A stretch of DNA of 45,610 nt, from contig JAUNDI010000019.1 in the NCBI GenBank assembly GCA_030526155.1, positions 1-45,610 of the forward strand, written 5' to 3'. The notes beneath the pieces were generated by a model that searched no databases, was not told the DNA's origin, and was given only the letters and a program-made list of their open reading frames with translations. A program made the position numbers and the translations under genes. This DNA comes from Bacteroidia bacterium (GTDB lineage Bacteria; Bacteroidota; Bacteroidia; Bacteroidales; Marinilabiliaceae). This document shows, one piece after another, positions 36,973 through 40,340 of this stretch. Position 1 is the first letter of the stretch; every line of letters begins with the position of its first letter.

Positions 36973-37194
36973 ATGAACTCTAAAAAACTGACATATTATA
37001 ACCCATCAATAAATATCGTAGATATCGATTTCCAAGTAGTATGCATTGGAGACTCGCTTGGTGATAAATCCGAGGGCGACTATAAAAAGCCTTCAGGAGA
37101 AGGTAGTACCGATGATGATTTCGTCGATTTCCCTAGTGGCTATAATTCATTAAACAAAAGCAAATCAATAGCCCCAGACCATATAGAATTCTAA
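36973..37194 (+). CDS. 73-aa small hypothetical protein of a Bacteroidales-type family
   Basis: The product starts MNSKKLTYYNPSINIVDIDF, then VVCIGDS, followed by a hydrophilic Gly/Ser/Asp-rich tail (GDKSEGDYKKPSGEGSTDDD). The layout (basic start, [YK]PS, V.I.....C.S, acidic Gly-rich tail) recalls the numerous small proteins of unknown function in Bacteroides and Prevotella genomes. There is no cleavable signal peptide. No TAnnTTTG element is found at the usual distance, so the promoter is unclear; it may be read from the region of the divergent MBL promoter. A clear terminator follows. Confidence 0.65.
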   Translation: MNSKKLTYYNPSINIVDIDFQVVCIGDSLGDKSEGDYKKPSGEGSTDDDFVDFPSGYNSLNKSKSIAPDHIEF

Positions 37195-37316: not shown

Positions 37317-37781
37317 ATGTCAATAAATAAAGTTATACTCTTAGGGAATGTCGGTAAAGAGCCTGACATCAGGTATTTCGAGCAAAATCGTGGCGTAGCA
37401 AACTTTACTCTTGCTACCACAGAACGCGCACACACAGGTCGTAACGATCAACAAATTCCAGAACGCACAGAATGGCATAATATTGTTGTAAGAGGCGGTC
37501 TCGTTCAGGTCGTTGAGAGATTCGTTCATAAGGGCTCTAAACTATATCTTGAGGGAAAAATTCGTACTCGCTCTTATGTCGACCGCGAGGGTAGAGATCG
37601 TTTCGTTACCGAAATAGTAGTGGACGTTCTTGAAATCCTCTCTCGCCGCGATGGAGGTAACAATAACCATAATGCCGAATACCAAAACCAGGCATACGAG
37701 GGTCTAGGCGAACCTAACTATAGTGGCGACAACCCCGATTCTTTAGGCGACGACTTCCTAGATACTAACTCTCCGTTCTAA
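37317..37781 (+). CDS. ssb: single-stranded DNA-binding protein
   Basis: The 154-residue protein has the SSB OB-fold: MSINKVILLGNVGKEPDIRY, NFTLATTERA, TEWHNIVVRGGLVQVVERFV and GSKLYLEGKIRTRSYVDREG. A disordered Asn/Gly-rich linker leads to an acidic tip ending in SPF, the usual partner-docking tail of SSB, which recruits repair and replication proteins. The ssb-gldE-gldD order is the one known from Flavobacterium. The next ORF starts 33 bases downstream. Confidence 0.95.
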   Translation: MSINKVILLGNVGKEPDIRYFEQNRGVANFTLATTERAHTGRNDQQIPERTEWHNIVVRGGLVQVVERFVHKGSKLYLEGKIRTRSYVDREGRDRFVTEIVVDVLEILSRRDGGNNNHNAEYQNQAYEGLGEPNYSGDNPDSLGDDFLDTNSPF

Positions 37782-37814: not shown

Positions 37815-39710
37815 ATGGATTCAGACTTATACCATAGTATTACGACCGGCTTGAGTGCAATAAACATTCAGCCGGTCCAATTTTCAACAATTATCCAAGG
37901 CATACTACTTATAGTATTGCTCTTCTTTAGTGCCCTCATCTCAGGTAGTGAAGTGGCTTACTTCTCCTTGACTCCTAGCGAATGCCAGGAGATGGAGTCT
38001 AATGGAAAACAAAATTCTAAACTAGCACTCAAACTCCTTCGAGACCCAAAGAGACTTCTAGCAACAATTCTTATCGGCAACAATTTCGTAAATGTCGCCA
38101 TAATCATGTTGTCAGCTTTTCTTAGCGCTGAGGTTATCGACTTCGGCTCTTCCACAGTCCTTAAATTCATATTCGAAACCATAATAATTACTACCCTCAT
38201 CCTCTTCTTCGGTGAGGTAATGCCTAAAATATTCGCAAAGCAGTACCGAATGAGGTTCGCTCAATGGATGGCTTACCCACTACAGGTAATGAGTACTATA
38301 TTCCGCCCATTCAGCTTGATGCTCATGAAGTCTACTAACGTAGTAAACGAAAAACTTTCAAAGCGCCAGAATTCTAACTTCTCCCTAGACGACCTCCAAG
38401 AGGCCATCGACCTCACAAGTAATGGTATCCGCGAGGAGAAGGATATGCTGGAGAGCATTGTGAAGTTCTCAAACCTTACTGCTATAGATATCATGACGCC
38501 TCGTATGGATGTCGTCGCCGTAGATATATCTGAGTCTTTTAGCGAAGTACTAGATACCGTCATCGAAAGCGGATACTCTCGTATACCCGTATACGACGAA
38601 CGCCCCGACGAAATAAAGGGTATCTTATATGTCAAGGATCTCCTCCCTCATATCGAGGAGAAAAACAATACAGACTTCGACTGGCAATCACTCCTGCGTA
38701 ATGCATACTACGTCCCAGAAAACAAAAAGACTAACGACCTCCTAGCCGAATTCCAATCTTCTAAAAACCATATGGCTATAGTGGTCGACGAATATGGCGG
38801 CATGCAGGGTATCGTTACCTTAGAGGATATCCTCGAGGAAATCGTAGGCGAAATAAGCGACGAAATGGATACCGACGAAGCTAAACTTTGGCACAAACTA
38901 TCCGACGGCTCAATAATATTTGAAGGCAAGATATCGCTAAACGATTTCTTCAAGGTAACTAATATCGACGAAGACGAACTAGACGAAAAACGTGGCGACG
39001 CAGAAACATTAGCCGGGTTCCTCCTAGAAATTAATGGCCTAATCCCTCAGAAAAAAGATATTATCCGATACAAAGAGCATATCTTTGAAATAATTTCAGC
39101 CGACATAAGAAGAATAAAAAAGGTGAAATACCATAGCATAAAAAATATCATAGTTCTCATCTTTTGCTCCCTACTCTTTGTTGGGTGTAGAGATAGCTAC
39201 GTACCTAAGCCTCATGGATACTTTAGAATAGACCTTCCTGAGCATCAATATTCTAACTTCGATAGCCTCGCTCTACCTTTCACTTTCGATAAGTCTGATT
39301 ACGCAGTAGTATCACCCGACAAAAAAAGCGTAGAGGGCGAACATTGGATTAATATCTCTTATCCTCAGTGGAACTGCAAAATACACGTTACTTATCGCAA
39401 CATTCGTGGTATCGTCGAACAAGCACTGGAGGATAACCGTAAATTGGCATATAAACATACCGTTAAGGCAGATGCTATCGGCGAGGAGTACTACGACGAC
39501 GCTGAGCATGGCCTATATGGCGCTCTTTATCTCATCAAGGGTAACGCCGCTACCCCACTCCAATTCGCTATTACAGATAGTACCGCTAATCTTTTCCGCG
39601 GCTCTGTATATTTTTGGGGTAGACCTAACCAAGATAGCCTCGCTCCCGTAGTGAACTATATCGAAAAGGATGTTACCAAACTTATCGAGTCTTTCCGTTT
39701 CAGAAACTAA
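37815..39710 (+). CDS. GldE-GldD in one reading frame (CNNM/CorC-type membrane protein + lipoprotein)
   Basis: The 631-codon frame has no stop between two normally separate genes. Residues 1-436 are GldE: DUF21/CNNM membrane domain (IIQGILLIVLLFFSALISG), CBS pair (DIMTPRMDVVAVDI, IVVDEYGGMQGIVTLEDILE) and CorC_HlyC domain, ending at the usual RRIKKVK. Then comes an apparent lipoprotein signal (from GTG 39123: VKYHSIKNIIVLIFCSLLFV, then GC458) and GldD (YVPKPHGYFRIDLPEHQYSN...). GldE/GldD are needed for gliding and T9SS function in Flavobacterium. Either a fusion is made, perhaps cut by signal peptidase II at C458, or GldD starts at the internal GTG. One change (TAC to TAA/TAG, codon 439) would separate them. 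Confidence 0.88.
   Translation: MDSDLYHSITTGLSAINIQPVQFSTIIQGILLIVLLFFSALISGSEVAYFSLTPSECQEMESNGKQNSKLALKLLRDPKRLLATILIGNNFVNVAIIMLSAFLSAEVIDFGSSTVLKFIFETIIITTLILFFGEVMPKIFAKQYRMRFAQWMAYPLQVMSTIFRPFSLMLMKSTNVVNEKLSKRQNSNFSLDDLQEAIDLTSNGIREEKDMLESIVKFSNLTAIDIMTPRMDVVAVDISESFSEVLDTVIESGYSRIPVYDERPDEIKGILYVKDLLPHIEEKNNTDFDWQSLLRNAYYVPENKKTNDLLAEFQSSKNHMAIVVDEYGGMQGIVTLEDILEEIVGEISDEMDTDEAKLWHKLSDGSIIFEGKISLNDFFKVTNIDEDELDEKRGDAETLAGFLLEINGLIPQKKDIIRYKEHIFEIISADIRRIKKVKYHSIKNIIVLIFCSLLFVGCRDSYVPKPHGYFRIDLPEHQYSNFDSLALPFTFDKSDYAVVSPDKKSVEGEHWINISYPQWNCKIHVTYRNIRGIVEQALEDNRKLAYKHTVKADAIGEEYYDDAEHGLYGALYLIKGNAATPLQFAITDSTANLFRGSVYFWGRPNQDSLAPVVNYIEKDVTKLIESFRFRN
39123..39710 (+). CDS. gldD: GldD lipoprotein, possible internal start inside the gldE frame
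   Basis: This is an alternative reading of the 3' part of the 631-codon ORF. GTG 39123 gives a 195-residue protein whose first 22 residues form a complete lipoprotein signal (basic K/H start, hydrophobic core, lipobox FVGC). It then continues with the GldD motif YVPKPHGYFRIDLPEHQYSN and a typical GldD body (HWINISYPQWNCKIHVTYRN). Upstream of the GTG there is an A/G-rich stretch (AAGAAGAATAAAAAAG) that could serve as a weak ribosome-binding region. Two genes overlapping at this point would be the ancestral state. Confidence 0.5.
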   Translation: MKYHSIKNIIVLIFCSLLFVGCRDSYVPKPHGYFRIDLPEHQYSNFDSLALPFTFDKSDYAVVSPDKKSVEGEHWINISYPQWNCKIHVTYRNIRGIVEQALEDNRKLAYKHTVKADAIGEEYYDDAEHGLYGALYLIKGNAATPLQFAITDSTANLFRGSVYFWGRPNQDSLAPVVNYIEKDVTKLIESFRFRN

Positions 39711-39722
39711 ATTAAGTAAGGA

Positions 39723-40340
39723 ATGCTCTTCAAAAAATTCTACGATAAGAGTGCCACAATGGGCATTTGGCAAATGACCGAATCTTTGGCCGAATTAGAG
39801 GCTATGTATACGGTCACAGATGACGAACGCCCTGTATATGACGGCTTCCGAAACGATAGACGACGTAAGGAGTGGCTGACCGTCCGTATCCTCTTGCGCG
39901 AACTCGTAGGTAAGGATGTCGAAATATGCTATAGAGATACCGGCAAGCCATACCTTAAGGATTCTTCTTACTGTATCAGCATTACTCATACCATAGGTTA
40001 CGTAGGTATCAGACTCGCTGCTCACCCCGTTGCTCTAGATATGGAGTATAAGGCCGATAGAGTCTTTCGCATCATAGATAGATTCGTCAACGAAAAGGAG
40101 ATGAAATATATCGACGAACGGGATAAGGTAAGCTCCGCTCTAGTACTATGGAGCGCCAAGGAAACACTCTTCAAATTGTTCGATTTCCAAGAGGTCGACT
40201 TCAAGGAGCATCTCTTTATAAGTAAAATGCATTGGGGAGCTAAGGGCCATTTCCGAGGTTCTGTCAATAAGGATGGCTTTAGGGCCGACGTGAAACTTAG
40301 TTTCGCCGTGTATGGCGACCTTATCTTGGTATATTGTTAA
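39723..40340 (+). CDS. 4'-phosphopantetheinyl transferase (Sfp/AcpT-like)
   Basis: The 205-residue enzyme transfers phosphopantetheine from CoA to carrier proteins. The family motifs are in order: CISITHTIGYVGI (residues about 82-94), the metal motif VALDMEYK and WSAKETLFKLF. The N-terminal MTESLAELEAMYTVTDDE is typical of Bacteroidota members. The ATG at 39723 keeps the full N-terminal strand; an internal ATG at 39759 would remove it. It begins 12 bases after gldD. It could serve fatty-acid ACP or a secondary pathway. Confidence 0.88.
   Translation: MLFKKFYDKSATMGIWQMTESLAELEAMYTVTDDERPVYDGFRNDRRRKEWLTVRILLRELVGKDVEICYRDTGKPYLKDSSYCISITHTIGYVGIRLAAHPVALDMEYKADRVFRIIDRFVNEKEMKYIDERDKVSSALVLWSAKETLFKLFDFQEVDFKEHLFISKMHWGAKGHFRGSVNKDGFRADVKLSFAVYGDLILVYC

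Follow-up and report, generated by a model that had tools for sequence, protein, structure and literature searches.

The locus considered here raises the question whether gldE and gldD, whose products belong to gliding and type 9 secretion and which are separate, adjacent genes in Bacteroidota (GldD of F. johnsoniae: Fjoh_1540), have become a single gene and, if so, how a GldD lipoprotein could be obtained from the joint product. In the analyzed stretch of DNA (hereafter the window: 45,610 nucleotides of a Bacteroidia bacterium, contig JAUNDI010000019.1), GldE and GldD are both encoded in full by one forward-strand frame of 631 codons plus TAA (37815..39710; ATG at 37815, TAA ending at 39710), with zero stops between the two parts. 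Families, gene order, orientation and signal type are those of the separate genes; the locus differs from them by its one frame, the missing stop and the lack of a separate GldD start shared among the fused copies.

Domain organization of the fused frame

The GldE profile TIGR03520 covered residues 32-440 (516.8 bits, cut-off 376.05; model positions 1-406 of 408) and the GldD profile TIGR03512 residues 450-629 (211.2 bits, cut-off 120; model positions 2-181 of 182); the fused chain also matched PF25593 (GldD_lipo; 203.7 bits, cut-off 27) and, each above its Pfam cut-off, CNNM, CBS and CorC_HlyC. Together with the stop-free frame in four species (see below), these matches bear out the original prediction of one continuous gldE-gldD frame with an embedded lipoprotein signal.

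The GldE part contains the CNNM transmembrane domain (37902..38420, + strand; residues 30-202; PF01595), hydropathy indicating hydrophobic segments near residues 29-43, 85-108 and 118-132, and ends with a CorC_HlyC domain (38895..39128, +; residues 361-438; PF03471) that is predicted to be cytoplasmic; in the CorC/CNNM family, GldE-type proteins have a cytoplasmic C-terminal end. The CorC/CNNM magnesium transporters of known structure (PDB 7m1u, 4hg0) match the GldE part by sequence; these PDB matches stop with GldE, and no solved chain matching residues 450-631 was found. The junction codons 429-443 (39099..39143, +) comprise the end of GldE and the positively charged n-region of an internal signal; they are followed by the hydrophobic stretch of this signal (39144..39185, +; residues 444-457), by Cys458 as predicted lipidation and cleavage site (39186..39188, +) and by the GldD domain (39192..39701, +; residues 460-629), predicted to be periplasmic and modeled with a pLDDT of 85.5. 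The whole-chain AlphaFold model shows a helix at residues 442-452 and low confidence at 450-469; its pTM of 0.34 is such that neither a domain arrangement nor a GldE-GldD interface can be taken from it. The predicted fold of mature GldD (39186-39707) resembles the Mog1/PsbP family, including the cyanobacterial PsbP homologue CyanoP.

Conservation of the open junction

The collection searched holds 15 genomes of the genus and 71 of the family (G000 denotes the genome of the window). When the locus was aligned with its relatives, a check that the original prediction had named, the frame proved to be open at the junction in G065, G066 and G067 as well: among the matches listed, four of the 15 genus genomes are stop-free across it, ten have GldE and GldD as separate matches, and in G056 just a distant CBS protein was matched; family-wide, the matches listed show both parts free of stops in four of the 71 genomes. 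The three other fused genomes are horse-faeces metagenome-assembled genomes (MAGs; 'Bacteroidales bacterium isolate Horse_feces' 89-91: JAKSLE010000002.1, JAKSLD010000005.1, JAKSLC010000026.1) with 83-89% protein identity; G065, G066 and the in-frame part of G067 also pass the TIGR03520 cut-off. A distant relative (L035, 31%) was found alongside these three close fused loci. The match in G067 (L005) is 17 bases shorter than that of the window and loses the frame near gldE codon 60, which makes a full-length G067 chain doubtful as assembled; the break, either an error of assembly or a lesion of recent date, leaves the junction and GldD of G067 intact.

Synonymous differences among the four fused copies are near saturation (pooled pS 0.82 for GldE and 0.77 for GldD; pN 0.083 and 0.067, respectively). 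Codons 429-443, free of stops in all four, show a pooled pS of 0.721 and a pN of 0.070 (pN/pS about 0.10), so that the junction evolves like the flanking coding sequence; at the protein level it is kept as RRIKKVKYHS[I/A]K. The hydrophobic stretch of codons 444-457 is relaxed (pN/pS 0.71), Cys458 being kept nevertheless. In a neutral simulation, rough because a star tree with G000 as ancestor was used, six codons remained stop-free in four lineages in 26-43% of the runs. An open frame by chance alone is thus weak evidence, and the argument rests on protein conservation: at least five of the six residues were kept, with no stop, in 1 of 20,000 runs at 20% change per base and in zero runs at 30% and 45%. 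The gldE-gldD frame is accordingly a genuine, conserved gene fusion.

Position of the seam and possible starts of GldD

Codon 439 is TAC, one base from a stop, as the original prediction had it; the relatives, however, do not support reading this codon as a near-stop. In the 16 split relatives read, an amino acid takes the place of Tyr439 (15 with Phe, Tyr or Leu, one with Met). Their GldE stop is reached 3-13 codons further on, and the closest gldD ATG either overlaps this stop or is at most 10 bases away from it; Tyr439 is therefore unlike a former stop. The sister of the fused clade, G060, has a GldE ending in RRIKKIRFTHNDK, with gldD beginning just downstream in another frame. The tail and lipobox pattern scans missed loci that did not fit the patterns, some of which were read individually.

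The GTG at 39123..39125 (+) is indeed codon 437, where a stand-alone GldD had been thought able to begin, but it is not conserved as a start: the codon is GTG in G000 and G067, GTA in G066 and GTT in G065. It sits in the usual GldE tail, with Val (as in Val437) or Ile there in most relatives read. A scan for starts was offered 44 loci, of which 41 were parsed (37 split, four fused; L065, L066 and L069 fell outside the pattern). An ATG is present 13-36 codons before the lipobox Cys in 34 of the 37 split loci versus none of the four fused ones; the three remaining split loci have one GTG (G012), one TTG and no start codon in this range, respectively. Among the fused loci, the Cys is preceded by a GTG at a distance of 21 codons in G000 and G067 and of 31 codons in G066, ATG, GTG and TTG are all absent from the range in G065, and no internal start 13-36 codons before the Cys is common to all four. 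As the GTG at 39123 is unconserved and ATG is absent in all four, translation in the fused clade probably yields GldD as the C-terminal portion of the GldE chain. A single GldD was found in the window genome, which is 91% complete.

The internal lipoprotein signal

In G000 the internal signal consists of the basic stretch RRIKKVKYHSIK, the hydrophobic stretch and Cys458, a pattern kept in all four fused copies. The mean hydropathy of the hydrophobic segment is 2.61 in G000 (residues 444-458), 2.47 in G066 and 2.22 in G065, and the residue preceding the Cys is Gly, Gly, Ser and Ser in the four species. The features of a lipoprotein precursor, i.e. a basic n-region, a hydrophobic stretch and a Cys preceded by a small residue, are hence present, except that the signal is not N-terminal and follows a GldE of about 440 residues. 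According to PMC8048626, the consensus lipobox has [LV] at position -3, variant lipoboxes being noted there as well. Leu or Val is missing at this position in the four fused species (F, M, T, M) and likewise in 21 of the 37 split loci; since the deviation is common in the latter too, it leaves the odds of lipidation unmoved. The presence of the Cys in all parsed split relatives is by construction, as the locus pattern itself demands it.

Origin of the fusion and search for further cases

In a GldE tree of 19 rows (midpoint root for drawing only; the G067 row is partial), the four fused rows lie together on one side of a 96/95 branch, adjoining G060. This grouping suggests one event: the fusion probably arose once, in a small Bacteroidales clade. 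The picture is that of fused operon neighbors, with the joint gene in one lineage, separate neighbors in its sisters and both partners kept.

Among the matches listed from 393 genomes of the order and 395 of the phylum, no other certain fusion was found, only the frame of the window being stop-free over both parts. At many other loci of the order and phylum, among the matches listed, the two genes share a frame that is interrupted by one to four stops within the match, which makes stop loss an easy route to fusion. A search with the GldD model detected GldD in 126 of 149 order genomes, and frames of more than 300 codons in G000 and G104 alone. The 654-codon frame of G104 is apparently spurious: its 5' part looks like a non-coding frame of GC-rich DNA, and GldE lies on another contig. 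Fifteen loci with long or unclear frames were read, 14 of them without a fusion: no stop-free frame with both proteins is present in G004, G317, G138, G158, G234, G384, G335, G449, G047, G794, G611, G583, G494 or G194. The fifteenth, on contig C15 of G285 (L047, another family), was left uncounted, as it reads through only at a junction codon with an undetermined base (N); it is a possible second GldE-GldD read-through. Titles and the beginnings of abstracts revealed no publication on a fusion of GldE with GldD or on a polyprotein processed by signal peptidase II.

Proposed processing of the fused chain

From the sequence features described above, the most probable course of events (about 65% in our estimate) is that the fused chain is translated, exported via its internal signal, lipidated at Cys458 and cut by signal peptidase II. 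A single GldE-GldD chain would be synthesized, and the GldE membrane domain would insert with the CBS and CorC domains remaining cytoplasmic. The basic stretch and the hydrophobic stretch would then act as internal signal and send GldD to the periplasm; such an order, basic before hydrophobic, agrees with an inside-to-outside crossing. Lgt would lipidate Cys458 and signal peptidase II would cut before it, the order of action that PMC8048626 describes for Lgt and Lsp at the lipobox Cys. The predicted products are a GldE with a short, membrane-embedded C-terminal tail and an ordinary GldD lipoprotein of 174 residues. LspA (signal peptidase II) is encoded in the window genome (G000:C44), and all four species retain the Cys and, ahead of it, a Gly or Ser although the hydrophobic stretch varies freely, which is consistent with cleavage; on the other side, the four genomes probably represent one event, and three of them are MAGs whose isolate names run consecutively. 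That this chain is moreover the sole source of GldD, an internal lipobox being the point at which signal peptidase II separates the lipoprotein and the polytopic membrane protein, seems slightly better than an even bet.

Alternatively, the chain could be exported and stay uncut, an internal transmembrane helix then holding GldD to GldE in the inner membrane. Such a helix could be formed by the hydrophobic stretch (compare the AlphaFold helix at 442-452), the persistence of the fusion in every one of the four clade genomes would suit a permanent link, and the -3 residue of the lipobox is non-standard in each of them; this outcome is nevertheless unlikely, as the retention of Cys458 and its small preceding residue is hard to explain if no lipidation takes place, and the genome possesses LspA. 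Still less probable is that GldD arises mainly by separate internal initiation, the open frame being an incidental loss of a stop: the GTG codons of G000, G067 and G066 and the split relative G012, which has a GTG and no ATG in the range, would speak for it, whereas G065 offers no start in the range, codon 437 is not a start in G065 and G066, and the junction codons show a protein-coding pattern of substitution.

An assembly or sequencing artefact that removed a stop codon might be suspected, given that at least three of the four fused genomes are MAGs and that separate GldE and GldD prevail among the matches listed for the genus; this explanation is hardly credible, since four separate species genomes, widely divergent at synonymous sites, all lack a stop at the junction and thereby already contradict it.

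Known systems and functional implications

A comparable arrangement is found in FbcH, the cytochrome b/c1 precursor of Bradyrhizobium, in which a single chain supplies a polytopic membrane protein together with an exported partner, the two being separated by a cut at an internal signal. In FbcH the partner is a cytochrome and the cut is made by signal peptidase I; the chain of the window differs by its predicted lipoprotein signal and would be a substrate of signal peptidase II instead. If it is cut at the internal lipobox, it would represent a natural polyprotein, and an enzyme of lipoprotein maturation would act as polyprotein processor. Production as one chain would entail equal synthesis of the CorC-like GldE and the type 9 secretion lipoprotein GldD, and the kept fusion is natural evidence that both work together at the inner membrane. 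The genome encodes GldL, SprA and 10 matches to C-terminal sorting domains (nine over the cut-off), which makes it likely that type 9 secretion is in use. To our knowledge, the role of GldE is unsettled. GldD is stated in PMC9127263 to be required for the stability of GldJ and GldK; in PMC5714932, GldE is described as seemingly absent in two Flavobacterium species, and gldB is stated to take over the role of gldE in gliding in F. johnsoniae (Hunnicutt and McBride 2001, as cited there).

Gene neighborhood

The fused gene is preceded by ssb (37317..37781, +; TIGR00621) and followed by a 4'-phosphopantetheinyl transferase-like gene (39723..40340, +; PF01648); a geranylgeranylglyceryl phosphate synthase gene also lies downstream. 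Between a metallo-beta-lactamase-fold gene and ssb, a 73-codon open reading frame with no Pfam match is present (36973-37194, +). According to the frames read, ssb is located upstream of gldE in G004 and G067 too.
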